Shown here piece by piece: positions 3,873 to 56,545 of a DNA stretch of 64,000 bases. Under the pieces are notes generated by a model. That model did no database searches and was not told the origin of the DNA. It saw nothing but the letters and a program-made list of their open reading frames with translations. The stretch comes from Pseudomonadales bacterium. GTDB taxonomy: Bacteria > Pseudomonadota > Gammaproteobacteria > Pseudomonadales > DT-91. How positions within the stretch are numbered: position 1 is the stretch's first letter; the number at the start of each line of letters is the position of its first letter. A program made the translations under genes and the position numbers. The DNA lies in assembly GCA_013215055.1 (NCBI GenBank), contig JABSRQ010000019.1:1-64000 (forward strand), written 5' to 3'.

Positions 3873-4433
3873 TTAAAAATCAGGGTTAACGCGCACCAAA
3901 CGCACCGGGTAAGCCGAATTTTTAGACGCATCAAAGACCATTCCAATGGAAAAATCTACGATCCAGGCAGTGTTAACTTGAAAAGGTGAGGAAGTCCAGG
4001 TCTCGCTAGACACAGTCGTAGGGAAAAACTTGTCATTTATGGCAGGTGTATGACAAGCACCTTCCACCAAAGATTCAAGCTCTTTGATATTAGGCAGATG
4101 CCAGTTTGTATAAACAAATTCATTGGCATTAACGCCAGTAATCGCTGCATGCCAAGTAAATGTGCTGGTGCCTGAATCGGTACACGAATCATCTGCAGGG
4201 CTATCGGCATTGCTTCCTGTATCCCAGGTATAACCCAAGGCGCACTTCTGCCACATCAGCCCCGTTTGAGTATCTGTCACCGTACCGTCTTTATGATCGG
4301 TATAGATGCTGTCTGGTTTAACCAGCAAAACTAAATTATTGCAGTTTGCCAATACTGATGGGCTTAATACTGCCACAGTAAGTAACGTTGCCATCGTCTT
4401 ATTTAGTTGCATGGAAAGACTCCTATTTTTCAT
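3873..4433 (-). CDS. exported DUF1566 (Lcl C-terminal-like) protein
   Basis: The 186-residue protein has an N-terminal signal peptide (residues about 8-29, cleavage after VLA). One DUF1566 domain follows: GTVTDTQTGLMWQK at about residues 49-62, TNWHLPNIKELESLV, and a C-terminal WTSSPF...WIVDF...YPVRLVR block. DUF1566 domains occur in many exported proteins of proteobacteria and their biochemical role is not settled. The gene is last in a leftward operon, 51 bp after another DUF1566 gene, and an AGGAG ribosome site precedes the ATG. Start at 4433 is therefore preferred over the internal ATG. Confidence 0.85.
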   Translation of the reverse strand: MKNRSLSMQLNKTMATLLTVAVLSPSVLANCNNLVLLVKPDSIYTDHKDGTVTDTQTGLMWQKCALGYTWDTGSNADSPADDSCTDSGTSTFTWHAAITGVNANEFVYTNWHLPNIKELESLVEGACHTPAINDKFFPTTVSSETWTSSPFQVNTAWIVDFSIGMVFDASKNSAYPVRLVRVNPDF

Positions 4434-4484
4434 TTTATATGCTCCTATTCATCACCGGGTACCTTAAAATCACCCGATGAAACA

Positions 4485-5327
4485 TTATGGGTTACGTACC
4501 AAACGAGCTTTTCGTGCACTGGCTTTTGAAGAAGGCTCCTCGACATAACCATAGGTGAAATCAACAGCCCAGGCTTTTTCACTTTCACCCGCACTGGGCG
4601 ACATTGACCAAAAATCGCCGGCTTCGGTATTAGCAAAGTAATCAACATCAATGGCTGGGCTAAAGCGGCTATAATTAATTAACGAGAGCAGTTCATTTTT
4701 GCTAGGCAATCGCCAATCGTTTTCACCACAGAGCCCTTGTACATTCACATCGGCTACAAATGTATCGGTATCACAAGCAGTGCCACCCGAGCAACTCCCC
4801 CCGTTCGAGGTTCCCGCTAAACCGCCGTTGTTAGCACTTGAGTAGCTATACCATGTATAGGTATGGTTTTTATTATGCAGACCAGACCCGGTTTTTACTT
4901 CCCAGATCAGGCCTGTCACATTATCTTTTACACATGACCAGCTACCGGCAGATGCGGCTAAATCGTTACCGCTGGCATCTAATTTGGTAAAACTGAAGCC
5001 CGCATGACCATCTGCATTATCATTGTGAGTGACATCACGCCCTTTATTGCCATCCTGCTCGGCAGGTACGGAATCACCATCGCCATCTCCATCCACGCCG
5101 CCGGCCAAACTACAGTCCACAGCATTATCATGTTCATTTGATGCACCGTAGGCGTAATCCCCACACAAAGTAATGCCGGTATCATTTAATGGAAGGGAAG
5201 CTTCGCTCTTGGTGGGTGTAGTAGAGCTGCCGCCTGCACCAGACGCTGGCACAGATCCTATACATCCGGCCAGAACTGCGGCACTGATAACCGTACCTGC
5301 AGCAATTAAAGGGAGATTTTTTTTCAT
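4485..5327 (-). CDS. DUF1566 lipoprotein
   Basis: The 280-residue protein begins with a lipoprotein signal ending in LAGC (Cys at residue 22), so it should be lipid-anchored. A low-complexity Gly/Ser and Asp/Gly-rich linker (about 25-105, including DGDGDGDS) precedes a DUF1566 domain: DNVTGLIWEVK, GENDWRLPSKNELLSLI, FWSMSPSAGESEKAWAVDF and a terminal KARLVR. The same domain occurs in the next gene, only 51 bp downstream, so the two are probably diverged duplicates. Position between the giant surface protein and that gene suggests a shared cell-envelope role. Confidence 0.85.
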   Translation of the reverse strand: MKKNLPLIAAGTVISAAVLAGCIGSVPASGAGGSSTTPTKSEASLPLNDTGITLCGDYAYGASNEHDNAVDCSLAGGVDGDGDGDSVPAEQDGNKGRDVTHNDNADGHAGFSFTKLDASGNDLAASAGSWSCVKDNVTGLIWEVKTGSGLHNKNHTYTWYSYSSANNGGLAGTSNGGSCSGGTACDTDTFVADVNVQGLCGENDWRLPSKNELLSLINYSRFSPAIDVDYFANTEAGDFWSMSPSAGESEKAWAVDFTYGYVEEPSSKASARKARLVRNP

Positions 5328-5415: not shown

Positions 5416-8400
5416 TTATTCACTGAGCAGCAATAATTCTACCCTGCGATTTTTAGCACGCCCGTCTTTGGTCTTATTACTGGCAACAGGTTTTGTTTCA
5501 CCCATAGCTTGCACTTGCAACTGCTGAGCTAACACACCTTCTGCTATCAACACCTCAACCACGGCTTTAACCCGATGCTCAGATAAGCGCTGATTATCTT
5601 TTTTCCTGCCCACATTGTCGGTATGTGCGGAGATTAAGAATCTGCTGGAAGGTTTGATTTTTAATACCGCGGCTAATTCCACAAGCTGCTGCAAAAATGT
5701 ATCACTTAGCTCAAAGCCTTTACTGGGAAAGGTAATATCGTAGTACTGATCTTTAAAAACCGCGCAAGCAGGAATAACAGGTTCACCCTGGTCATTGAGT
5801 TTTATACAGTCAATTTCTTCGGGAGCTATGGTTGCGATGACTGTTTCTGAAATAGCATCTTCTACGACAGGATCTTCTACGATAGTTTTTTCGGCAATAG
5901 GCTCTTCTACAACAGGGTCTAACACCTCAACTTCTAATGTTACGGTTTTTTTCTTAGCACCAAAGAATCGTGAAATCGATAAACCCACATAACGTGCGTC
6001 TTGGCTATAGACATCAACATAGGCTCTGGCGAACCACCGCTCGGTTACGCGGTATTCTGCCCCGGCGCCAAAAGCCAACTGCATATTACTGCCAGTATCC
6101 GAGCTAATGAGATCATTACTCACACGGCTATTAACGCCAGCAAGGCCCGATTTCACAAAAACATTCCATTGATTATTTTGATTAAAAAAATAATAACCCA
6201 CCATCAACGATGGCACCGTATATTGAATATTTTCAGAACCACTGCCTAATAAGGGGTTTTTATTATGGATGCTGGCCTGGCCTAAATCAGCATATTGAAA
6301 CTCTGCAAACCAGTGCGGAAAAAAGCGGTAGCCTACATGTATTTGCAAGCTGATATCACTGTGGTCATCCACCAACCATGAGGATGAACTTTTGGCTTCT
6401 GGGTCCAGCACCGATAGGCCCATGCCGGCACCCACATACCAACAGGAGGGAAAACTAAAACGTTTATTGGCATCACAGACTGAAGCTTCATCACCGGCCG
6501 TCACACTGGTCGCCATCAAAGCAGTGCAGAAAAACATACAAGGTCTGAACGCCCTGCCACGCAGTAATCCTGCCAATATTAAAAAGAACATCACTATCGA
6601 CGTGCTGCCGCCGGCACCGTTATGAATAGAGGTTTCAAAACCACCATCACGCTGCAGATGATCTGAAATACCATCACCGCTATAATCTGCAAACTCCAGG
6701 CCATCGACAATGCCATCATTATCACTGTCACTATCTTGATGATTCCAAATACCATCGCCATCGGCATCAAAAATTTGCACCCGCGCGTCATCAACACCAT
6801 CATGGTCCACATCAAAACGCCCCTCATCAACCACACCATCACCGTCGACATCCGCATCTAACGCATCATCAATACCGTCTTTATCCGTATCCCTATGTAG
6901 CAATGCCACAGAGGAAACTTCATGCAGATCACTGACGCCATCCGCATCGCTATCGCTATCTAAATAATCAGGAATGCCGTCACCATCGGTATCCACAGGG
7001 TTGAAATCATCATCGATACCATCCTTATTAGCATCCAGACCACCGGTAAAAATAGCTTCTATTGCATCGTCAATGCCATTTTGATTAACATCAACACCAC
7101 TATAGGGATAACCGCCCATTTCCATCGCATCTTTAATGCCATCATTATCACTGTCACTATCGAGTTGATCGGGAACACCATCACCGTCGCTATCTATCAT
7201 GCCTTCAATCAAATCACTGATACCGTCGTTATCATCATCCCCATCATAGATATCATAAATACCATCGTTATCGGTATCCAACGGCAAAGGGTCGGATACC
7301 ACATCGATATAATCAGCCAACCCGTCAAAATCACTGTCCAGCGGCTCAGGTGTTAGGGCGCCCTGGTTATAAATGCCGTCGGCTTCAAATTCATCCAACA
7401 GGCCATCGGCATCGGAATCATCATCCATATAATCGGGAATATTATCGCCATCGGTATCTCTGGGTTTTGAGCTATCGGGGCCTAACTCTTCCTTATCCGA
7501 TAAACCATCCAAATCGGAATCGCCTGAGCCATCTTCGGTGCCCGCCGTATTTTCACTATCGGCATCTTTAAAGTCAGGAATAAAATCTGCGTCATGGTCA
7601 TCATTGAAAGGCTGCTGATTATCACTAATTTCATCCACATCCGATAAGCCATCATTATCATCATCTAAATCGGCATAATCGGGAATGCCATCACCGTCCG
7701 TATCCATCAAAGCATTACGTTCTTTATTATCTGTTATGGCGTTATTGTCACTGTCGACATCACTGTGATTGGGTACGCCATCCAGATCGGCATCCTCACA
7801 GGGGTTGGCTTGACGACACTCGATTTTATCAGCAATGCCATCACCGTCAGAATCCCCGCCAGCCGCAAACTCTACGCCAGCAAGTGCTTGCAATCTATCA
7901 CTGATGCCATCGGCAGGTTCAATATCAAAATTTTCATCGGCGTCTAACAGACCATCACCATCTGAATCCATATCGAGGTAATCCGGTATGCCATCGGCAT
8001 CGGTATCTAATGGGTGCAAAGCATCCAGGCCTACTTCAATACGTGTAGTAATACCATCGCCATCATCATCGTCATCCAAGGCATCGATACCTGCAGTATT
8101 GTCGTTATTTCTAGGGGCTGAAATAACAGGACCCACTTCAACAGCATCGTTAATGCCATCATCATCAGAATCGACATTTAAAGGATTTGTACCCAGTATC
8201 TGTTCTTCGGCATTGCTGAGACCATCCCCGTCGCTGTCATTATGCATATCATTATCAGCCGCATCGAACTGGTCGTTAACGCCGTCTCCATCGGCATCTA
8301 CAAGCAGCGATTCATGTTTATCCAGCTTGCCATCACCATCGCTATCGATATCACCTTCAATCACATTGGCTAAATTATCGTCATCACTGTCACAGACCAT

Positions 8401-11400
8401 CACCCATTCATCGGGAATACAGGGATCTTCAGGCGCTGGGTCTACAAAGTCTCTGAAGCCATCCATATCGGTATCGATAATGTCAGATAAAATAGTGATA
8501 CTGAACGTGGCCACCTGAGGGTCATTGATCACAAAATTGGATCTTGCATACACCGTGACAGTGACTGGGCCATCATTTGCATTTAATAAACCCGCAGCAG
8601 AGCGGGTAATTCTGCCGCTATCGGTATGAATCGTGAAAAAATCATTGGCGGTGACTTCCGCCGGCAGCGTGTATTTCACCGCATCACCATCGGCATCCAT
8701 CGCGTTGGCGGTAATGCCGGTATAAGATGTCACGATGGCATATTCTACCAGCTGATTAACGCTGCCATCCATATCCTGGATCGCCGCCAAGGCATTATCA
8801 TCCACATTCTGGATGGTAATTGTGATAGGCACCACGGCGGTATTCTTGTTTGCATCCGTGACGCGCAGGCTCACGTTATAGCTATTCTCGCTGTTGACAT
8901 CGACAGGTGTTTCATAATCCTGCGCCGCCAAGCTTATTTGCCCCTGTGGTGTAATTAAGAATAAGGCCTGATCCTCGCCCTCTTTTGACCAGATCAACTC
9001 ACCCAGATGGCCTTGCACATCAGGTATGTTAGAAAGATAGGCTGTGTTTTCATTAATTGTGTCACTGCTGATATTAGAGATCTGCAGCTGAGAAATCTCA
9101 TCGACGTTAAGAATGTTAATCACTATTTCAAGCACGGCGGTATTGCCTTCAACATCCGTTGCACGTAAACCCAGCTCATAGCCATTATCGTGGCCATCAT
9201 CCAGTGGGGATTCAAAGTTTTGTTCAGGCAAACTGAATTGGCCGTTATGCTCGATAACCAACAAGGGGGCATCAACACCCTCTATAGCCCACGTGACCAA
9301 ACCAATATTGCCGGCGATATGTGGTGCTGTTGAAGTAAACACCGTATTTTCATTAACGTTGGATACACCAGGCATATTACTGATAATCAGCGTCGCTGTT
9401 TCAAGCTTATTTTTAACAGTGACTGTAAACGCTTTAATCGCGGTATTTTCATCGGCATCCGTCGCCCGCAAAATAATGTTATAGCGATTATCGCTATTGG
9501 CATCCTTGGCCGCTTCAAAGTTTTGTGCCGCCAACTGCAGCACGCCACGATCACTTACCGAAAACAACGCAGCATCGGCGCCCTCTACTGTCCAGTTAAT
9601 GGCTCCGACATTACCCGCAACATCTGGGGTTGTAGAGTTATAAACTTCATTTTCATAGACACTGGCATCATCGATATTACTGATCAGCAGTGTCGAGACT
9701 TCACGTTTATCTATCACACTGACGGAGATATTTTTCACTGCCGTATTGCCATCGGCATCCGTAACACGCAAAGACATAGTATAAATATTGTCCCTGGATT
9801 TATCCTCGGGGGATTCGAAGTTTTTCTCAGCCAGGCTCAGAACACCCGTGGTGCTTAGCAAAAACAAAGCCGCATCTGTACCTTCTTTAGCCCAGATAAC
9901 ATCACCAATATGTCCTGCCACACTAGGCGTATTTGAGGTATAGACAGTATTTTCATCAACGCTGGCATCACCGATATTACTAATGCTCAAGATTGAGCTT
10001 TCAGTGACATCTTTAACCTTAATGTCTAGGGCTTTAACAGCTGTATTGGCATCGGCATCGGTTACACGCAAGCTGATGTGATAAATATTATCGAGGTTGG
10101 CATCCTGCGGGGATTCAAAGTTTTTTGCAGCTAAGGTCAAAACACCATTATCCAGAAGGGTAAACAAAGCGGCATCAATGCCTTCTTTTTCCCAGGTTAC
10201 GGCCCCGATATTGCCTTCAACCCTAGGCAGTAATGAGCTATAAAATTCGTTTTCATTGATCTGGGCATCAATGACATTGTTGATCACCAGTTCCGATATT
10301 TCTTGCATATCCAATACGGTTATCACGATCTGTTTAAGCGCCGTATTACCGTCTGCATCCGTCGCTCTTACGTCAACGTTATAATGATTATCGTTAGAAG
10401 CATCATTTGGCGCTTCAAAATTCTGAGCAGCTAAACTCAATACACCTTCAGCATTGATGGAAAACAGCAACGCATCATCCCCCTCCTTGCTCCATATCAC
10501 CGCACCAATATTGCCTTCTAGAACGGGAGTAGTGGAGGTATAGGCCTCATTTTCATTAAAATTAACACTAGATAGATTACTGATTATCATTGTCGATATC
10601 TCCGAGATATCGGCAACACTGATACTTAAAGTAATGGTTGCTGTGTTGGCATCGGCATCTGTGGCCCGCAAACTGACGCTATAAAAATTATCTTTATTAG
10701 CATCTATGGGCGATTCAAAATTTTGCGCAGCTAAACTCAGCAGACCTTTGTCGGTGATGGAAAACAATGCAGCATCATCACCTTCTTTGGCCCAGCTCAC
10801 GACACCCATATTGCCAGCTATGCTGGGTATTGCAGAGCTATACACACTATTTTCATTAATCTCACTATTGTTGATATTACCTATCACCAGCGTCGACACT
10901 TCACGGATATTTAAAACCCTAATACTTAGATGGGCTACTGCTGTGTTGTCGTCCGCATCCGTTGCCCGCAAGCTAACGCTATAGCTATTATCCTTATTGG
11001 CATCCAAAGGAGATTCGAAGTTTTGTTCAGCTAACGAGAGCACACCGTTCGAGCTGATTGAAAACAATGTCGCATCGTCACCTTCTTTAGACCAGATCAC
11101 AGCACCCATATTGCCAACGATGCTTGGTATTGCAGAGGTATAGGCTGTATTTTCCGGGGTATCGGCGTTACTGATATTAGCGATGTTTAGCACTGAGACT
11201 TCTGTCATATCAAGCACGGTAATCACGATCTGTTTAAGCACTGTATTACCGTCTGCATCCGTAGCCCTTAAGCCAACGTTATAACGATTATTCACAGAGG
11301 CATCATTTGGCGCTTCAAAATTCTGAGCAGATAAGCTCAATACACCCTCAGCATTTATTGAAAACAGCGCCGCATCGTCACCTTCTTTAGTCCAGGTCAC

Positions 11401-14400
11401 GACACCAATATTGCCCTCAATGCTCGGCATGGTAGAGCTATAGGCACTATTTTCGCTAATATCGCTATCGCGGAGATTAGCGATCGTCAGTGTTGCGGTT
11501 TCAATCACATCGTTAACGCTAATTTCTAACATGATATCTGTGAAATTTTCATCCGCATCCGTGGCTGTTAATGTCACGTCATAACGGTTATCACGGTCGT
11601 CATCTTGTGGCTCTTCAAAATCCTTAGCCGTTAGTGTTAATACCCCATATTGATCCATTGAAAATAAAGCGGCATCAACCCCACGTTTACTCCACACAAT
11701 GGAGCCAATATTGCCACTCACTAAAGGTGTAGCTGAAATAAAGACCTGATTTTCATCAATGCTTGAATGATTGATATGACTAATACTGAGAATGGCCGAT
11801 TCATTGATATCGACGACAGTTATCTGTAAAGATACTGCCGCCGTATTATCATCCGCATCGGTTACACGTAGTGTGACGTTGTAGTGATTATCCAAACCCG
11901 CATCTTTAGCGGCCTCAAAATTTTGTGCTGCCAGGGTTAATTGACCATTTTCAGATAACACAAACAATGCAGCATCGGCACCTTCTTTGCTCCAGGAAGC
12001 TGCGCCTATATTGCCTGTAATGGAGGGTATATTTGAGGTATAGATGCTGTTTTCATTGATGCTGCCACTGCCCATATTGCTAATGACGATGGTTGATGTT
12101 TCGTCAACATCCTCAACATTAACACGGATATTTTGGCTAGTTGTATAACCACCATCGGAGACCTCAACGTTAACGTCATATTGATTATCCCCAGCGCCCT
12201 CAAAATCGGCGGCTATTTTAAAAGCCAATACACCTGTTTTGGCATCCAGTTCAAACAAGTCTTTATCGACACCTGAAATAATTCGGTAGCTTAAAGCATT
12301 AAGATTATCTAAATCTGTAGCATCCAGTGTGGTTACGGTTCTATTGCCTTCTTCAACGTCAATACTGATAGCATCACCCGCCAAAAAAACAGGTGCGTTA
12401 TCGTTAACATTATTCAACTCTATCGTGATGGTGCTGTCCGCCCCTACATATAAACCATCATCGACACCAATAGACAGATTAAACGTTGCAGTGCCTTCAT
12501 CAAAATCCAAATTTGCACCAGCGGCTACACGAATAATGCCCGTATTAGCATCAATAGAAAATTGGCCTTCTTCATTACCAGCCGCAAAACTGTAGCGAAT
12601 AACATCGCCATCTAAGTCGACATCGGTACCGGTATCTGCATCGTTAATATCGAGAATAAGGCTATCTACGCCAATGTTTTCGTAAATAGGCACCGTTTGA
12701 TTAAACAGCCTAGGTATTTTGTTAGGCCCTATTAATGTATATAGGGAATAGCTGTAACTGAAATTATCTAAGGTATCTTTATACGTGCCTTTTAATCGAA
12801 CCCAATCACCGATAGTTAATGATGAGACCGTATAGTTAACGTCGTTTTCAGCATCAATATTTTGCCATATTGCACCTTCATCTTCGGATTTTTGCCATTG
12901 GTATTGCGTTGTTTCGGCATTGGCTGACAGGGTATCCTTGCTTAAAAATAACCGTGATTGCTCATGCGCAAAACGTAAGTTAATTTCAATACGTCGAATA
13001 ACAACATTAACCTTGGAAATAATATTCTTATTTTGATCAAAGATAGAAAAGACATAGGCATCACGTAAGGTAAAATCAATGACTGCGTCGCTGAGTAAAT
13101 TACCCGCTCGTGACAGCTTAAATAAGACCCCATCTTCACCGCCTAAAATCTTCCATTTTAGGATATATTCGTTGGATGAAAATAATGGACCTAATGCCGT
13201 ATCAGGCGCCAGATTTCCATCCACATAAAAAAATTGTTCGTCAATAACGGGGCTATCGGATTTGCCCAGGGCAAGCACATAGTCCTCTACCTCGCCATTA
13301 AGCACCAGCCCTTGGGCTGAAGCCGCATACAGGGTTTTATCACTGCTCAGACGAAAACGCACATAAACAGGATAGCCTTCAAAAAGCTCCGATAAACCGG
13401 GAGTACTGGACCACACAAGATCATCCGCAGGAGAGGCTTGATACAAGCCACTGACTACCGGAATCGCTGAGTATTCGTCTCTATCAAATTGGCCATTACC
13501 ATCAAAATCAATCCAGGCATGTAACGTCGCCGACTCGCCTAAGGTATTGGTTACGATAATATTGGCTGCAGGTATACGATATTGGCCGTCGGTAATACTC
13601 AATGGCAATAACGTGATACCGTCTTCATCATCACTGCCGATGATTGTTTCATCATCGGAATTGGCGCCTCCACCGGGAATACCGCCAGCTTCACCATCAA
13701 CACCCAGCCCCAGGTAGATTTTTTCAGCGGCGCCTATCACCCCGTCAAAATCATAATCGGCCTGTAAATGCCATGCACTCTTGTCTGTACCTGAGATCGT
13801 TCCAAAAGATTCGGGCGCATCACCAAAATCGGTATTTAAGGTTAAAAAAGCATGAATGCCTAGGTGAACAATACCATCGCCGCCAGGTTCACTGGGCACG
13901 GTATCAAAATTCATGCCTGCCCTACCGCCTTTAGCCGAGACGGAATACAAGGCCGCGATGTTAGATACAACATAACCGCCACCGCCGCCACCGCCACCAC
14001 CATGCTCAAAATCGGCCTGCCCACCGCGGCCGCCATCGGCTTTGATGCTTAAATTTTCAAGCTGAGTATTGACTACATCCGCAAAAAACAACACCACCGT
14101 ACCGGCTGCACCGCCGCCGCCTGCACCGTCATTTTCATAATGCCACTGAAACCAGGAATAATACGGGCCAACATCCGCTGTGCGGCCTATACTGCCTCGC
14201 ACATCGATGGAAGACGTATTATCGGCATGGGCAGATTTGGCGTAGATAAAAACAATGCCGCCACCGATGCCGCCATTATTTTTTGAATTATTATTGGCTT
14301 CTCCTGCACCGCCGCCGCCACCTAAATTCAGGCCGGCGAGTATCGACTGCCCACCATAACCGGCATAATTAGTCTCGGTAGCTTGCCAGCCTCTGGCACC

Positions 14401-15390
14401 TGTGCCTCCACGTCCGGCATTGGAGCCACCCCCGCCTCCGGCATTATGAGGACCGGCACCACCACCGGCATTACCTGGTGCACCACGGCCAAAATCGCCT
14501 GCGGCTAACGTCCCTGCAGCCACTATCGTGTTAAATTCCGAGGATAATTGTGCAGGATAAACACCGTCCTGCGGTGTATTAATATCTCCTGGGTAATCAA
14601 ACAGCGCATCACCATCCGCAGTATCAATACTTAATGAGGCCACTTGTGCCGGTGTACCGGCTATGCCTTCACCTTTGCCTCCAACATCGGCGGCTGAAAC
14701 AGCAACTTCGGCCTGATTATCGGTGGTCTGGGTTCTGTCAATTTCTACGCCGCCACGAAATCCTCTTGCGGCAGCAGTAATGGTATAAGTATTAAAATTA
14801 ATATGGGCATCGGGCGCGTTAAGAACCACAACACCACCGCTATCACCATCCCAGGATTCGGCCGTAACACCCCCTACAAGATTGATCTCATCAACCCCTG
14901 TATACGGTACGATAATAATCTGCCAGTTCGCCTCAGCCGTATCAAGATAGGCATGTTTCAGCATTTGAGTCAGGGTAATTTCAGAACCGTTTACACTTTC
15001 AACATGTACAAATTCAAACGTCCCGGCCGATTGGCTGATTAAACCACCCGCATAATTTTTTGTACCATGTAACGATGTAGCGATACTGGTCATGGTGGTG
15101 CCATCACCTACACCATCGCCGTAGAGGTTATTATTCTCAGTATTGATGGCTGCACCTTGAGATTGCAATAATAGCAATACATCACCGGCTTCAATCTGGG
15201 TTTCTGCCCCTCTGAAGTCACCTGAATACTGAATAACAGTGGCTCCCTCCAGCACATCACCCAGGCCTTTAACGTAGCTATTTACTACACCTGAAATATG
15301 CACAGCCGTGTCTGCCGTTAATGTGGGCAAAGAAAAAAGAGCAAAAAATAGTATAAAAACTACGCTACGCAGTTTTAAAAAGTTAGACAT
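5416..15390 (-). CDS. giant multidomain surface protein with C-terminal OmpA
   Basis: This 3324-residue protein is exported (signal peptide about 1-26, cleavage near TLTA). In order it carries an N-terminal region with a glycine-rich stretch (about 290-490), a GEVED-type domain (about 520-710, starting [10 protein letters not shown] and ending GEVEDYVL), two ordinary cadherin-like domains (about 900-1090), eleven 100-residue cadherin-like repeats (about 1100-2190), one more cadherin-like unit, and a long series of thrombospondin type 3 calcium-binding motifs such as DSDGDGIPD (about 2290-2910). At 2925-2945 there is a Gly-Gly, hydrophobic, Arg pattern like a GlyGly-CTERM sorting signal. It is followed without a stop by an OmpA-like barrel (about 2965-3150), an acidic Pro/Val/Glu linker and an OmpA peptidoglycan-binding domain (about 3210-3324, with HTDNVG and LSEHRVKAV). 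It probably acts as a calcium-dependent adhesin or biofilm protein at the outer membrane. Confidence 0.9.
6640..8500 (-). repeat. thrombospondin type 3 (calcium-binding) repeat coding region
   Basis: About 620 codons are dominated by DxDxDGxxD motifs (for example [19 protein letters not shown] and DSDNDGI). On the plus strand this shows as endless CCATCACCATC and ATCGGTATC variants. Such motifs bind calcium and make a stiff rod in known thrombospondins. The codon-level repetition makes this stretch prone to misassembly or copy change. Confidence 0.88.
8800..12100 (-). repeat. eleven tandem 300-bp cadherin-like repeat units
   Basis: A TTTTCAT-type element (encoding NEN) recurs at 9047, 9347, 9650, 9950, 10250, 10550, 10850, 11150, 11450, 11750 and 12049. 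The period is exactly 300 bp except for one 303-bp step. Each unit encodes NEN-x-YTS...GNIG-x-V-x-W-x-KEG-x-D-x-ALF...LAAQNFE...[10 protein letters not shown]. The uniform period and high similarity indicate expansion by recombination of one unit. Confidence 0.92.
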
Positions 15391-40551: not shown

Positions 40552-41220
40552 TTAAGCCGTTTTTTCCGCAATCAGCACTCTATACCACCGTGGCCCTTTG
40601 CCAAATAAACCGAAGTCTTCGACGTTTTTAGTTTGCAGGCATAATGCTTCAAACTGGGTTTGATAATCATAGATTTGATGTAAGGGGTTTTTTGCGATTA
40701 ATGCAAAGGTCAAAAGTGCCGCGCCGTAATAACCCTGTTGTAACAGACGCATCAACGCATTACCGCGGCGCGGGCCAAAATCGGCAATCATAAATAGACC
40801 ACCGTCTCGTAACAGGCCGCTTAAGTGTTTTGCCATGACAGGCATGGTCTGGGTATCAAATACATTAAGAAAGAAGTTAGCCGCAACCACATCGTATTGT
40901 CTATCCGTATGTTGAAAGACATCACCATGAATCAGGGTGATCTTATCCGCCACCCCGGCTTTTTCGATTTTCTTTTTCGACTTATTCAGCATATTGATGG
41001 ATAGCTCAACAACGGTTACCTCCGCGCCTTTCTTCGCGGCCAGGATGGCATCATCCCCGCCACCAGCACCGGCATATAACACCGTATCACCCGCTTTTAT
41101 ATGATTGATCTGATAAGCCTTGCAGGCCAGAATTTGAAAACCACTGTACAGATGTGACAAGCTGTCATAAAAATACGCGGCCAGATCATAATTATTGTTA
41201 TCGGTTTTTTTCATTTCCAT
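40552..41220 (-). CDS. class I SAM-dependent methyltransferase
   Basis: The 222-residue enzyme has motif I VLYAGAGGGDDAIL (about 47-60), VTVVELSINMLNKSKKKI for strand 2, HGDVFQ and a DVVAANFFLNVF strand-4 segment. The frame is intact. A C-terminal FALIAKNPLHQIYDY stretch is hydrophobic and may form a substrate lid. In this operon it could methylate an acyl chain, a hydroxyl or the released product. It lies between the DUF2156 gene (42 bp upstream) and the ACP gene (83 bp downstream). Confidence 0.88.
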   Translation of the reverse strand: MEMKKTDNNNYDLAAYFYDSLSHLYSGFQILACKAYQINHIKAGDTVLYAGAGGGDDAILAAKKGAEVTVVELSINMLNKSKKKIEKAGVADKITLIHGDVFQHTDRQYDVVAANFFLNVFDTQTMPVMAKHLSGLLRDGGLFMIADFGPRRGNALMRLLQQGYYGAALLTFALIAKNPLHQIYDYQTQFEALCLQTKNVEDFGLFGKGPRWYRVLIAEKTA

Positions 41221-45803: not shown

Positions 45804-45839
<36 letters not shown>

Positions 45840-51565: not shown

Positions 51566-53698
51566 CTAGAACATAACCCTGGCACCCAGCTCCAGAGAAC
51601 GCCCCGCTTCCGGCGCAACATCCCTGAGGAATGACGTGGAATTTCTGATTTCCGCATTGGTCAGATTTTTAACCCTGAGGAACAACAGCGTATCCGTGTT
51701 AGCCGAGGCTATGGAGTAATTAACGGCCACATCCACGCGGGTATAACTATCGGTGGGATCTTCATTTAAACCAGGGTTATCTTGCGCAGCCGCATAGGTG
51801 GTACGCAGGTAACTGCCCCAGTTATTTTTATGCAAGTTTAACGTCGCGCCTAGTCGATAAGGCGGCAGGCGTGGCACATAACTGCCATCGGCATTTTTAC
51901 CTTCTATCGCGTCGGCAAACACATCCAGATCCCAATCAGCCCAGCTGCCTGGATTGCTAAGCAGAATATTACTGCTCACTTCAACACCTTTAAACGTCGC
52001 ATCCTGCTGGTTATAGGTATAAACATCGATGTGATCATCATTATGATCCGTCTTCATCAAATAGATGTAATCGGAGAAGTCATTATAAAAGAGCGTGATA
52101 TCCCCTTTCACTTTATCGAAACTCCAGCGCAGTGAAAAATCGATATTATTGGAGATCTCGGTATTCAGATCCTGATTACCCAATTGAATGGTGCCAGTGG
52201 CTCCATGGATAATATCGTGGCCTTCGACATTGGAATATAACTCATCGATACTCGGTGCACGTTCCGAACGGGACAACGCCACCGACGTACTCCAGTTATT
52301 ATGGAACTGCCAGATTGACGAGGCTGAGAAACTGAGGCTGGTAAAATCCCGGTCTTCGGCGCCATGGCCATCCGTGGTGAATTGATCCACATCGACACGC
52401 CCGCCAAATTCATGAATCCAGTTACCGGTCTGATAACTTTCCACCCAGAATAAACCATTGGATAGATGTTGCGTCTCGGGTATCAAGGCATCGGCATCAT
52501 GATCTTCACCTTCGAATGCGGCATGTTCACCTTCGTGATCATGATCGTGGTGACCGGCCAAGGCCTGAAACACACGTCGCTGATTTTGCATGCCAATAAC
52601 ACCCGTCCAATTCTCGGCAAATGAATGGCTGGCTTCCAGGCGGTTTTCCCAGCTATTGCTGGTATACGTCGTTGCCACTTCATGGCCTTCATATTCGAGG
52701 TGTTTGTAGTCGGTATAGGTCAAATTCCATTTGATGTTTTCGGCCCAAGCCAGACCCAGTTCATAGCCACCTGCTATGTCATAGCGGTTTTGTTTGAGGT
52801 CTATCCATACCTCTTCTTCTTCATGTTCCTCGTGATCCTCGCCTTCGGAATGGCCACCGTGATCATGGCCGCCCTCGGGGATGCCATATTTATTATCCAG
52901 ATGGCTGACAGAGAATCCTAGATAACCGTCATCAAAGATACGCGAAAAACCCGCAGTGATATTCTTGGTCTTGCCGCCACTATTATGAATCCTGTTATGG
53001 CTGTCGCCATGATCGTCGTGTTCACCAGCGATAGGATCAACAGGCACTTTAACATCCTCCCATCCTCGATACAGGCCATCCAAATGCCAGGCCCAATCCT
53101 CTGATCCACCGTCGAGTTTTAATAGGCTGGTTTTGCCTTCGGAAGCAGAGTCGATGCGCTGCTCAAACGCTCCACTAACCCCGTCAGCCCCGGTTTTGGG
53201 AATACGGTTATCGATAACGTTGATGACACCACCGATGGCACCACCGCCATAAAGAAGCGTGGAGGGGCCTTTAAGCACCTCAATCGATTCGGCCAATAGA
53301 GGCTCGATAGTCACAGCATGATCGGGGCCGGAACTGGACGCATCGATATTGCCGGTGCTGTTTTGTAATATGCGTACACGGTTACCTTGCTGGCCACGGA
53401 TAACCGGCTGGCCTACGCTGGGACCAAAACTGGCGTTGGCAATGCCTGGGGTGGCACTGAGTGTTTCCCCCAGTGTATTGCTGGCTTTATGGTGTAACTC
53501 CTCCCCACTGATCACCGTGACCGGCAATGCGGTCTCGGCTTTTTTTCTGTTTAACGCAGATGAGGTGATGATCACCTCCTCCATAGGCAGTTCTTCTTTG
53601 TTTTCTTTTTTATTTTCTGCAAAAGCCAAAGGCATAAATACAGGTGTGGCCGCGGTAATGGCAATCGCAATCGCAATCGCAATGATAGATTTTTTCAT
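51566..53698 (-). CDS. histidine-rich TonB-dependent receptor (ZnuD-like)
   Basis: ATG at 53698 is preferred over an in-frame GTG six bases upstream, giving 710 residues. A signal peptide (about 1-27, containing an Ile-Ala run) leads to a plug domain with VTVISGEELHHKAS, GQPVIRGQQGNRVRILQNS and IEVLKGPSTLLYGGGAIGGVINVID. The barrel ends GRSLELGARVMF with a terminal Phe. Three putative outer loops are packed with His, Asp and Glu (HDDHGDSHNRIH, GGHDHGGHSEGEDHEEHEEEE, HHDHDHEGEHAAFEGEDHD). Such loops are known in the zinc receptor ZnuD, so zinc is the likely ligand. A His/Cys-rich small protein gene lies upstream. Confidence 0.9.
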   Translation of the reverse strand: MKKSIIAIAIAIAITAATPVFMPLAFAENKKENKEELPMEEVIITSSALNRKKAETALPVTVISGEELHHKASNTLGETLSATPGIANASFGPSVGQPVIRGQQGNRVRILQNSTGNIDASSSGPDHAVTIEPLLAESIEVLKGPSTLLYGGGAIGGVINVIDNRIPKTGADGVSGAFEQRIDSASEGKTSLLKLDGGSEDWAWHLDGLYRGWEDVKVPVDPIAGEHDDHGDSHNRIHNSGGKTKNITAGFSRIFDDGYLGFSVSHLDNKYGIPEGGHDHGGHSEGEDHEEHEEEEVWIDLKQNRYDIAGGYELGLAWAENIKWNLTYTDYKHLEYEGHEVATTYTSNSWENRLEASHSFAENWTGVIGMQNQRRVFQALAGHHDHDHEGEHAAFEGEDHDADALIPETQHLSNGLFWVESYQTGNWIHEFGGRVDVDQFTTDGHGAEDRDFTSLSFSASSIWQFHNNWSTSVALSRSERAPSIDELYSNVEGHDIIHGATGTIQLGNQDLNTEISNNIDFSLRWSFDKVKGDITLFYNDFSDYIYLMKTDHNDDHIDVYTYNQQDATFKGVEVSSNILLSNPGSWADWDLDVFADAIEGKNADGSYVPRLPPYRLGATLNLHKNNWGSYLRTTYAAAQDNPGLNEDPTDSYTRVDVAVNYSIASANTDTLLFLRVKNLTNAEIRNSTSFLRDVAPEAGRSLELGARVMF
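53661..53684. repeat. hexanucleotide repeat inside the receptor signal peptide
   Basis: Three full GCAATC units plus a partial one encode an Ile-Ala dipeptide run in the hydrophobic core of the signal peptide. Gain or loss of a unit keeps the frame and changes core length. Confidence 0.85.
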
Positions 53699-53892
53699 GA
53701 ACACAGTAACCTACGCCCCGGATAACAGGGACGCTCAAGCAATAGCAGTAAAAAGCTATTGCAGTAAAATTTTCTCACGCTAAAGCAACGTCTAAAAATA
53801 GGACGTAGAAACAACAAACATCAAAAAAATCAGGCATCAAAAAATGACAGCCAGCGTTGTGACGTTGCAGCGCAAATAACAAGTTTTAGGGA

Positions 53893-54189
53893 TTAGCTGT
53901 GGTAGGAAGGGGGAGCCCGGCTGTGATAACCCGTGATAACGGCGAGATCGGTGATGTAGTCAGTAACCGCAGCGGTTTGAATCGGCTGATGTGTATGAAT
54001 CACAAGACTCATCGGCGTGCTTAATATCGCGTGATCAGCAATACCGCGCTGTGAGCAGACCGTACACTCGATGTGCTGTTGCTTAAAGTCGGTAAGATCG
54101 TGAACATGGTGACTGATCATCCACTGACTGGCAATTAGCACGGTGGCTAATACAGCAAGTAAGTATCTGTTATGGATGGCGGTTATCAT
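53893..54189 (-). CDS. small exported His/Cys-rich protein next to the zinc receptor
   Basis: The 98-residue protein starts with one hydrophobic segment (about 9-24, LLAVLATVLIASQWMI), either a signal peptide or an anchor. It continues with HHVHDLTD, IECTVCSQRG and several later His residues (HAIL, VIHTHQP, YHSRAPPSYHS). Small proteins with a C-x-x-C and flanking His residues are common beside zinc receptor genes and are thought to bind or sense zinc. It is 188 bp upstream of the receptor on the same strand. An ATGTTATA half-site just upstream recalls a Zur box, but only one half matches. Confidence 0.7.
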   Translation of the reverse strand: MITAIHNRYLLAVLATVLIASQWMISHHVHDLTDFKQQHIECTVCSQRGIADHAILSTPMSLVIHTHQPIQTAAVTDYITDLAVITGYHSRAPPSYHS

Positions 54190-54383
54190 GAAAAGGTAAA
54201 ATAATTACACGTTTGAATGGAGGCCGAAATATAACATAAACACAGGTGTTTTTGTAGTGGGAACATCATTAATATGTGATGCAAGTATTACCTTCAGAAC
54301 AAGATACCTCATTGAAACCACAAAGGTATTTGGCGAGACAATTGTGAATGTCTGATTACCCCCCCAGGGGCTTTGAAACGTTT

Positions 54384-55124
54384 TTATGGCGATGGCGGCA
54401 TTCTTTTGAAGCGGCCGATTTTCAGGAAATGTTGCACCTGAAAAACTACCTTGTCATTACTCATCATAAACGTATGCGTCACAGGCATGATGATATGATC
54501 TTTCATGCCTTTGAGTCTTGTCGATGCGACCGAGACTTTGCCATCATTGGGTTTAGGTAACATCGTCGATAAAATCAAATTTACCGTATAGCTGCCGGCA
54601 ATGATGCCGACCTCAAAATTAGCAGGCCCCAGTTTATTAGGCACACTGGCTTTATCCGTACCCAGCTGATGGCCGGCCGGCCCATGAATCAACTCATAAC
54701 CCGGGAAATTATGTAACTTGTCTGCGACCTCACTACCATGATTGGGTGGTGCCAACATCACCACCCGCCCAAGCTTTTTAATCTTATGTTGACTCAAATA
54801 TTGGCGTAGCAAGATGCCGCCCATGGAGTGGGTAACAAAATGTATACGGTGATCAGCAGGACAAAAAGATAACGCATCGGGGATGGTGGTTTCTGCCAAG
54901 GTTTCGATAGTAAATGCGGTAGAGGGATAGTCGTAATTAACCACCTTATAGCCCTGATGTTCCAGGGAGTTCTGAATTTCCTGCATGGAGCCATGGCCTC
55001 GGGCCAGACCATGTAGCAGGATGACACAGTCACCAGCAACAACCTGCATCGACAACAAAAGACTCAATATCAATACTGAGCCCCTGCTGTGATATTTCAA
55101 CAGGAGTAAGAACTGTTTCATCAA
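54384..55124 (-). CDS. exported lipase-like alpha/beta hydrolase
   Basis: The 246-residue protein has a signal peptide (about 15-31, cleavage near VVAG). The oxyanion segment is VILLHGLARGHGSM. The nucleophile is S100 in VTHSMGGIL; the probable acid and His lie in the C-terminal part (NDGKVSV and VTHTFMM). LAPPNHGSEVADKL is typical of the triacylglycerol-lipase/esterase EstA-LipA-like group. No dedicated foldase is adjacent. Start at 55124 (MMKQF) or the next codon. Confidence 0.85.
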   Translation of the reverse strand: MMKQFLLLLKYHSRGSVLILSLLLSMQVVAGDCVILLHGLARGHGSMQEIQNSLEHQGYKVVNYDYPSTAFTIETLAETTIPDALSFCPADHRIHFVTHSMGGILLRQYLSQHKIKKLGRVVMLAPPNHGSEVADKLHNFPGYELIHGPAGHQLGTDKASVPNKLGPANFEVGIIAGSYTVNLILSTMLPKPNDGKVSVASTRLKGMKDHIIMPVTHTFMMSNDKVVFQVQHFLKIGRFKRMPPSP

Positions 55125-55229
55125 GCCTTCTTATTTACTTTCTCACGTAAACGCTGAACCTGAGTTTGAATACAGATAGCAGAATCGTGCCTATCAACGA
55201 GGCCGCCAATATGAACCGATAATGTCTAT

Positions 55230-55418
55230 TTATGGCGACTCAAAACGCCTGGCACAGGTGCTAAGGCATAAATTCCACAGGCGAGTTTTGGAGCCACTAT
55301 TAAGGCAGCGCAAATCGGCGGCACATAATTCGCCCTTATCCAATAAACTTTCCAGTTTATCCACGTCTATTTCCAACTGCAGTCGTTCCGTCTGTTTTGT
55401 ACATTGGTTTATGCGCAT
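55230..55418 (-). CDS. small Cys-rich protein, second gene of a Fur-boxed operon
   Basis: From ATG 55418 the product has 62 residues with five cysteines (C6, C32, C38, C51, C55). The pattern is LLDKGELCAADLRCL followed by LWNLCLSTCARR. It is probably a cytosolic helical protein, since there is no signal peptide. The spacing of C32, C38, C51 and C55 would suit metal or cluster binding. I vaguely recall similar short proteins in marine gammaproteobacteria but cannot name a family. Its ATG follows the stop of the preceding 52-residue gene by one base, so the two are coupled. Confidence 0.7.
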   Translation of the reverse strand: MRINQCTKQTERLQLEIDVDKLESLLDKGELCAADLRCLNSGSKTRLWNLCLSTCARRFESP

Positions 55419-55419
55419 A

Positions 55420-55578
55420 TTATTTCGCTCCTCTGTCAATCACTGCTTTTCCCAGCTGAGATTGAATGTCAATAACTTCACGGCTGCCAGGCCCTGCTGT
55501 TTTAAAAGGCTGGTTAAAATATTCTCTGCTGACCTGTAATACGGAACACCTTGGGTTTTCCTGTTTAACCTTCATCAT
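55420..55578 (-). CDS. very small protein, first gene of a Fur-boxed operon
   Basis: The 52-residue frame begins MMKVKQENPRCSVLQVSREY and ends IQSQLGKAVIDRGAK. A GGAGGTC ribosome site lies a few bases before the ATG at 55578, which is strong support for translation. No signal peptide and no recognised family; it lacks the HemP consensus. It is headed by a Fur-like box at 55616-55634 and coupled to the next small gene. Confidence 0.65.
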   Translation of the reverse strand: MMKVKQENPRCSVLQVSREYFNQPFKTAGPGSREVIDIQSQLGKAVIDRGAK

Positions 55579-55615
55579 CTTTTGACCTCCCTGTTAATGC
55601 TACAACTACAATCTA

Positions 55616-55634
55616 AATGAGAATCATTATCATT
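55616..55634 (-). promoter_or_regulatory. Fur box
   Basis: AATGAGAATCATTATCATT (plus strand) contains GATAATGATTCTCATT on the minus strand, a close match to the Fur consensus. It lies 38 bp upstream of the 52-residue gene and no gene on the other side could use it. Iron-limited expression of the two-gene operon is inferred. Confidence 0.75.
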
Positions 55635-55811
55635 GCAATAAATCACAGCAAATATTTCAAACAAGAAGGTCTTCATGAATGGGGTTAGTTCCCCCAGAGT
55701 TAATAAAATACCCCCCACTAAAAAACCACACAGGCAAAAACATATGCCGATACCTCTAGCGGCATCAAAATTAACGCCATGGCTTAGCCATGAACATTGA
55801 TATCATCGGCC

Positions 55812-56327
55812 TTAAATCGCGTAAAAATGCTCTGTCATCTTTTGCAGCCCAACCATGCCTGCAGTAAAATCGCCATGGCGAGAACATCCCACCAACTCGG
55901 CATAATTTTCCCTATCGAGCTTTAACAGGGTCTGATGATCGCCAGCCTCCAGATACACATGATCCGCCTGCAGCAGCTCATCATCTACCATCATTTCTAC
56001 TCCAAAGGCATCGCCGCATCCCGGAATTGCACCGGGTTTACAGCCGGAAAAAATCTGAGCTAATTCGACCTCCGCCATCAAATGATAATTTGAATCCGTC
56101 AGTTGATTAACCGCGGCAATGGATAGGTGTTTATTGGCAGGTACCGCAACCATCAGCTGAGTACCCTGCTCCTCATTTTGTAACATCACAGCCTTGGCCA
56201 ATTGAGCACTTTCCACATGCGCCGCAGAAGCCGTATTAAATGCGGTATCGGTAAGTTGATGATGGACTGACTCGTAGCTCAGCCCCTGATTAGACATATA
56301 GGTTCGTAAGTTGATTGCAATCGCCAT
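55812..56327 (-). CDS. YbaK/ProX-like aminoacyl-tRNA deacylase
   Basis: The 171-residue protein matches the YbaK/EbsC fold, which hydrolyses mischarged prolyl-type tRNAs. Visible features are HQLTDTAFNTASAAHVE (about 21-37), LAKAVMLQNEEQG, MVAVPANKHLS, the conserved Gly-rich FSGCKPGAIPGCGDAFG (about 95-110) and a late GDHQTLLKLDRENYAELV. The lysine of AKAV and the GCKPGA loop are the usual active-site region. The protein is stand-alone, not fused to ProRS. No operon partner is evident. Confidence 0.88.
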   Translation of the reverse strand: MAIAINLRTYMSNQGLSYESVHHQLTDTAFNTASAAHVESAQLAKAVMLQNEEQGTQLMVAVPANKHLSIAAVNQLTDSNYHLMAEVELAQIFSGCKPGAIPGCGDAFGVEMMVDDELLQADHVYLEAGDHQTLLKLDRENYAELVGCSRHGDFTAGMVGLQKMTEHFYAI

Positions 56328-56545
56328 GAGACACCTCTATCGATAAACCTTACTGACTCATTATACAAGCTCAGCAGCCACAAAAAGCCTGCGCCTTAGA
56401 CTCACTGGCACACAAAGCGTTTTATCTTATAGATTTAAAGAATAAGCACCGCTTACCCACATCGGGCAGGCAATCATAATCTGACTTTATGCTCTGCTCA
56501 GCAGCCGATTATGCTTAAATCTCATTACACATAAGAACAGCTCAA

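Follow-up and report, generated by a model that had tools for sequence, protein, structure and literature searches.

A family of small proteins behind Fur-like boxes, distantly related to PA4570

PA4570 of Pseudomonas aeruginosa, which two reports describe as an iron-starvation-induced gene with a Fur site (PMC13277308, PMC8534726), is among the closest described counterparts of the gene examined here. Its transcript is shared with RsmW, an RsmA-binding RNA cut from its 3' end (PMC4950607), and a likeness of PA4570 itself to RsmA was ruled out by its authors' own failed complementation, the protein having been unable to stand in for RsmA or for CsrA when tested; a transposon mutant in PA4570 still grew in airway mucus (index 1.58 versus 2.46 for PAO1). 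No functional account of PA4570 was found in the literature searched, which included PMC13277308, PMC4597187, PMC4950607, PMC8534726 and PMC10473638. A second point of comparison is HemP/HmuP/ChuP (PF10636), a small Fur-repressed protein of iron operons: ChuP is reported to act as a small regulator (PMC9131926), and in S. maltophilia lacking fur HemP reduces the expression of hemA (PMC9241770). FeoC (PF09012) and Bfd (PF04324), too, are small cysteine proteins linked to iron, with genes for Feo or bacterioferritin close by. Lastly, fagA-fumC-orfX-sodA is a Fur-box operon described for Pseudomonas (PMC3377617).

The gene examined here, ORF2, lies with a shorter frame, ORF1, in the window (the whole 64-kb stretch of Pseudomonadales DNA that was analysed), and it resembles each of these systems in part. 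Like members of the PA4570 family (NF050178), ORF2 is small, has a Fur-like box upstream and carries an alignable C-terminal domain; unlike them, it scores far below the family cut-off, lacks their N-terminal stretch and keeps four cysteines. The ORF2 family shares with HemP its small size, its place in iron operons and a Fur repression that for ORF2 is predicted, whereas neither ORF1 nor ORF2 has any sequence relation to PF10636. Some ORF2 relatives, like FeoC and Bfd, are small proteins with cysteines that are encoded close to genes for Feo or bacterioferritin, but ORF2 has no profile relation to either. The gene most often seen directly ahead of ORF2 relatives is distantly related to a gene that follows fumC, as orfX does in that operon; the window unit has no such OrfX-like gene, the same assembly carrying one on contig C7 (L151).

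A minus-strand unit behind a Fur-like box

The unit comprises the following features.

55747..55793, minus strand: a pair of terminator-like hairpins in the gap that separates the Fur box from the upstream gene at 55812-56327 (consensus scan)
55613..55637, minus strand: two overlapping Fur-like 19-mers (sequence scan, near-identical box at the C206 paralogue, boxes at relatives)
55584..55590, minus strand: GGAGGTC ribosome-binding site of ORF1 (sequence)
55420..55578, minus strand: ORF1, 52 codons plus TAA, an orphan frame, possibly a leader peptide (ORF list, no homologue)
55230..55418, minus strand: ORF2, 62 codons plus stop, a Fur-associated small protein with Cys5, Cys32, Cys38, Cys51 and Cys55 (ORF list, homologues)

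This anatomy had been set out in an initial annotation as a box, a GGAGGTC ribosome site and frames of 52 and 62 residues with a one-base gap, and it was confirmed from the sequence, all of it on the minus strand, which the annotation had not specified. ORF1 runs from the ATG at 55578 to a TAA ending at 55420, with GGAGGTC five bases before the ATG, and exactly one base separates its stop from the start of ORF2. ORF2 extends from the ATG at 55418 to its stop at 55230 (62 aa, or 69 aa if the in-frame TTG at 55439 is used) and has its own ribosome site, GAGGAG, nine bases ahead of its ATG. The consensus scan returned two terminator-like hairpins in 54900-55850, against a shuffle mean of 0.6, and none 3' of the unit; the predicted pair at 55793-55747 bounds the upstream gene and sets the unit apart from it. 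A promoter scan found no sigma-70-like promoter above threshold on the unit's strand, and the arrangement seen by eye around the Fur box (TTGCAA, 17 bases, TAGATT) matches at 8/12, below the scan threshold.

The main Fur-like 19-mer, GATAATGATTCTCATTTAG at 55613-55631 on the minus strand, agrees with the consensus GATAATGATWATCATTATC at 15/19 positions, and it is overlapped by a second match at 14/19 (55619-55637). The 64-kb window holds five sites of 15/19, for which the first-order Markov expectation per 64 kb, over both strands and with each palindromic site counted twice, is ~0.5 at exactly 15/19 and 0.1 at 16/19. The four others all lie inside ORFs.

8238, 10380 and 10576: three other 15/19 Fur-like matches, within a 3324-aa ORF
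41184: a further 15/19 Fur-like match, within ORF 40552-41220

Since these four lie inside ORFs, the score alone is not decisive and the comparative evidence is; the window box is suggestive by itself and becomes convincing only through comparison with the loci of relatives. The 3324-codon open frame (5416-15390, minus strand), with its three 15/19 matches, warns against score-only Fur calls, and a short (AAT)n repeat at 45806-45836 mimics Fur-box scores.

For the comparison, the best site from -250 to +20 relative to the start of the operon's first gene was scored at 59 best-match loci of ORF2 relatives, in whose choice the Fur box played no part. These 59 come from the strongest matches, of which no more than 30 were taken per search, and so lack the weaker matches of the order-level search; they leave out the pseudogene L138, duplicates with short flanks and the window itself, and they include one protein that is identical in two genomes (L048 and L128) and a paralogue from the window's own assembly (L137). 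As controls we used 300 other ORFs of at least 200 codons in the same loci, among which there may be genes sharing a divergent Fur region. A box of at least 14/19 was present at 35 of the 59 loci versus 18 of the 300 controls; the corresponding counts were 23/59 versus 4/300 at 15/19 or better, and 44/59 versus 41/300 at 13/19 or better, leaving 15 of the 59 without a box of at least 13/19. A paralogue of ORF2 on contig C206 of the window's assembly has a nearly identical box. The box thus stands at the promoter and, by sequence comparison, is kept at relatives, as in a Fur regulon, which supports the Fur control proposed in the initial annotation; an iron response of the window unit itself would be expected. 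The assembly (7.19 Mb in 460 contigs, 84.7% complete and 3.95% contaminated) is fragmented, so that its paralogues could derive from another organism.

The ORF2 family and its relation to PA4570

In a single-sequence search, relatives of ORF2 were found in 4 of 56 genomes, its own counted, the others being G034 (56% identity), G021 and G009. The window's assembly also holds an intact paralogue on C206 and a broken one on C124, and ORF2 is absent from the five other genomes of the window's own family. Profiles reached further: one of five rows found the family in 40 of 390 genomes of the order, one of 18 rows in 23 of 369 genomes of the class, and a profile search of the phylum in 10 of 299 genomes, all ten of them within the class. 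Seven ORF2-like loci came from named genome records, which are metagenome assemblies labelled in their titles as Gammaproteobacteria, Chromatiales, Syntrophobacteraceae and Desulfobacteraceae. The second frame had been offered as a conserved one, and the order and class counts bear this out. Judged by these searches, ORF2 is a member of a widespread, undescribed family of proteins of ~55-70 residues, and the interest lies in the family rather than in the pair of frames.

The family is without a Pfam match. Up to E 1, Pfam gave no family for either frame, a range within which ORF2 matched no CsrA/RsmA profile and neither frame matched BFD (PF04324) or FeoC (PF09012), and none of seven ORF2 relatives had a match above cut-off. 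For ORF2, NCBIfam returned the PA4570 family only (E 0.0012). In that model ORF2 scores 19.1 bits (18.9 bits in the genome scan), against a curated cut-off of 100, and so does not qualify as a member. Profile-to-profile comparison (hhalign) of the ORF2-family and PA4570-homologue alignments gave a probability of 91.7% over 54 columns, with a pairwise E of 8e-7. The alignment covers columns 21-74 of the PA4570 profile only, and ORF2 does not have the N-terminal IDAWL/P/LRI stretch of PA4570 homologues. A distant relation through a shared C-terminal domain is therefore supported by the profile comparison.

Fur-like boxes are also frequent at PA4570-family loci, at 14/19 or better in 11 of 20 and at 12/19 or better in all 20, as counted in 20 of 30 loci (the ten omitted are a truncated locus and nine weaker loci, including that of the window). 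At L163 in genome G057, a PA4570-like gene is flanked by a 16/19 Fur box on one side and an OrfX-like gene on the other. PA4570 has stood as an iron-starvation gene without a function, and a broad family with recurrent partners (OrfX-like, DUF2325 and hemP genes) and a subfamily bearing a candidate metal site offers more organisms and testable partners. The family also exposes a class of iron-linked genes missed by every Pfam model, of which the window pair is a modest example.

Genes next to ORF2 relatives

The most frequent gene directly upstream of the small gene (20 of the 59 best-match loci) encodes a protein of ~150-180 residues with a conserved FLCxxH start. It shows a distant relationship (E 1e-5 and 6e-4) to the gene that comes immediately after fumC in two genomes labelled Pseudomonas-like, in which PA4570 homologues also score above the cut-off of that family, the label of these f20 genomes resting on those matches. 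At L161, Fur-like boxes are followed by a 134-codon frame, then fumC (identified by Pfam as fumarase C) and then the FLCxxH-related gene, an order that fits fagA-fumC-orfX; we therefore call the FLCxxH protein OrfX-like, a name that rests on position, a weak profile match and the operon described in PMC3377617. DUF2325 takes the same place in 6 of the 59 loci (confirmed by Pfam in L070 and L071), and 33 of the 59 have no recognised partner; in the 22 loci measured, -23 to 50 bases mostly separate the partner from the small gene. The window's assembly holds an intact OrfX-like gene with a 16/19 Fur-like box on contig C7 (L151) and, on contig C20 (L158, ~4392-4716), a broken one with internal stops behind a 17/19 Fur-like box.

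HemP is the third neighbour. Across the window and all loci, the YxLRxTxxxKLILTK-like HemP motif was found only in L072, L101/L077 and L112/L088, and hemP adjoins ORF2 relatives in each of L101, L112 and L072: directly upstream in L101 (PF10636, 1e-21), 9 nt ahead in L112 (by motif), and preceding DUF2325 in L072 (by motif). The L112 locus (~5916-6000) has the look of a tight heme-type operon, in which the hemP-motif gene, nine bases, the ORF2 relative, 80 bases and a 690-codon, TonB-receptor-looking frame follow one another; a 70-residue fragment of that receptor had no Pfam match. The window has a TonB-dependent receptor of its own (51566-53704, minus strand), with long His/Asp/Glu loops and ZnuD as its best NCBIfam match (380.9 bits, cut-off 950), which is probably a zinc uptake receptor; a 98-codon His/Cys frame lies upstream of it (53893-54189, minus strand).

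Further Pfam-identified neighbours are FeoB (L070), FeoA (L073), Bfd (L109) and ferritin-like genes (L060, L102 and L110, with L104 just below cut-off). These iron genes differ from locus to locus and are not conserved.

Candidate role of ORF2 and standing of ORF1

We posit, tentatively and at less than even confidence, that ORF2 serves iron economy as a small helical adaptor or co-regulator under Fur repression, resembling HemP in what it does though not in sequence, and that its own branch of the family has a cysteine metal site. As iron falls, Fur would leave the box and the transcript would be made; translation of ORF1 may couple to that of ORF2, and the ORF2 protein would act on a protein or RNA partner in iron economy, as HemP/ChuP does for heme receptors. 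In the cysteine branch, Cys32, Cys51 and Cys55, possibly with Cys38, would bind iron, a cluster or zinc, making the action metal-dependent. We favour an adaptor because the family is tiny and accompanies varied iron operons and partners, and because the neighbouring HemP/ChuP is itself a reported small regulator; metal binding, partner and regulatory role are what we infer from this setting. Against an adaptor speak the 33 loci without a recognised partner, the 15 without a box, the five genomes of the window's own family that lack ORF2, and, in the published work on PA4570, the failed replacement of RsmA/CsrA and the mutant's continued growth in mucus.

A wider version, which we regard as rather doubtful, would make the whole family an undescribed, widespread group of Fur-repressed mini-proteins with PA4570 as a divergent branch: an interchangeable metal-sensing adaptor with varied partners (hemP, OrfX-like, DUF2325 and orphan genes), whose three- or four-cysteine iron- or cluster-sensing site was lost several times and which couples uptake to storage and iron-sparing metabolism.

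The cysteines bear on both. In an alignment of 59 distinct proteins (the duplicate dropped and the window protein added), Cys38 is present in 43, Cys32 in 24, Cys51 in 26 and Cys55 in 28; all four occur together in 13, the window protein included, Cys38 stands alone in 19, and seven have none of the four. Cys32, Cys51 and Cys55 tend to be found in the same proteins (Fisher p 1e-4, 5e-6 and 3e-7, kinship ignored), and Cys38 is independent of them. Kinship was taken into account on a tree that was built without the cysteine columns, from ~45 columns, and compared with a simple branch null, so that it lends weak support: joint changes fall on 7 of 11 branches for Cys32 with Cys55, a level that none of 2000 null draws attained, on 5 branches for Cys51 with Cys55 (p 0.027) and on 4 for Cys32 with Cys51 (p 0.08). 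The pattern fits a putative joint Cys32/51/55 site in one branch, gained or lost as a unit. Since members in many genomes lack the cysteines, metal binding cannot, on this alignment, be the function of the whole family. Of the metal or cluster binding first proposed for the second frame, what stands is the co-occurrence, weaker on the tree, together with further CxxC motifs in some relatives; what does not is its extension to the proteins that lack all four cysteines or have Cys38 only. Two relatives (L124 and L113) have an extra C-terminal tail, C-x2-C-x5-C, past the family domain, perhaps a second metal site in part of the family.

The same cysteines feed the best-placed alternative, which we consider somewhat unlikely: that ORF2 handles iron or Fe-S clusters directly, acting on storage or uptake as Bfd does on bacterioferritin and FeoC on FeoB. 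The ferritin-like, Bfd, FeoA and FeoB neighbours are in its favour, as are the co-occurring Cys32/51/55 and the C-x4-C-x2-C-x5-C ends of L112 and L139, which are spaced like the FeoC cysteines. The relation to FeoC that this spacing suggested was rejected, however, with a profile comparison (hhalign) probability of 0.3%; direct handling is further at odds with the lack of a Pfam match to BFD or FeoC, with the many members devoid of cysteines and with neighbours that change between loci. ORF2 in the window ends at residue 62, seven past Cys55, and does not have the C-terminal cysteine motif of FeoC, which occurs only in relatives such as L112 and L139.

Structure prediction bears on the other main alternative, nucleic acid binding. 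An AlphaFold2 model of ORF2, built from eight sequences, has helices at 19-27 and 41-60 (mean pLDDT 80, pTM 0.55), and the conserved positions are Leu39 (50/59 aligned proteins), Lys/Arg44 (45/59), Ser43 (43/59) and also Leu22/Leu25. Such a helix, short turn and long helix, together with a conserved block L-x-A-x-[DE]-L-x-x-L-[DN]-x-x-S-K-x-x-[IVL] that would form the two helices, could be read as a helix-turn-helix-like protein binding DNA or RNA polymerase; we hold this to be unlikely, the resemblance having been seen by eye and no helix-turn-helix family having matched in Pfam or NCBIfam. Foldseek of the model against the PDB returned four matches, all with E 4 or worse, a second fold comparison one row with Z 2.4, and a sequence search of solved structures one match with E 0.32. 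With no fold match, the regulatory role that the adaptor reading gives to ORF2 rests on context.

ORF1 might be a true small protein that works together with ORF2 and occupies the slot of the OrfX-like, DUF2325 or hemP genes, which we judge improbable. Its strong ribosome site and one-base gap to ORF2 argue for this, as do the 26 of 59 best-match loci in which OrfX-like or DUF2325 genes take that slot, mostly at short gaps, and L069, where a Fur box and a 53-codon frame precede the ORF2 homologue. ORF1 has, on the other hand, no match in Pfam, NCBIfam or PHROGs, no homologue beyond its own genome among 56 relatives and 274 class genomes, and no relative in IMG/VR or plasmids; the leaders of both ORF2 paralogues in the window's assembly align with that of the window and carry no ORF1. 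Its codon score is ambiguous, above 84% of 99 shadow ORFs but exceeded by 96% of the real 52-codon segments taken from long genes of the window, which puts it at their 4th percentile. Kinship with other occupants of the slot was rejected as well: Smith-Waterman comparison with six OrfX-like proteins gave shuffle p of 0.029 to 0.82 and no shared place, neither motif nor Pfam match pointed to a degenerate HemP, and the L069 frame gave p 0.70. Among the 13 frames compared with ORF1, where some low values are expected, those of L103 and L117 gave p 0.007 and 0.027.

That the Fur-controlled transcript is the working element and its short frames incidental, as with RsmW from the PA4570 transcript (PMC4950607), is very unlikely: the non-conservation of ORF1 would agree with it, but ORF2 is conserved at the protein level across the class and no Rfam family was found at 54300-56400 up to E 1.

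ORF1 is most likely not a conserved protein, and at most a leader peptide translationally coupled to ORF2, as judged from sequence. The two-gene unit of the initial annotation survives in its anatomy, its box and ORF2, and gives way on ORF1 as a gene. At L069 (2756-3219), the 53-codon frame between the Fur-like box and the ORF2 relative, itself without a Pfam match, carries CKNNCSNC, a CxxxCxxC arrangement.
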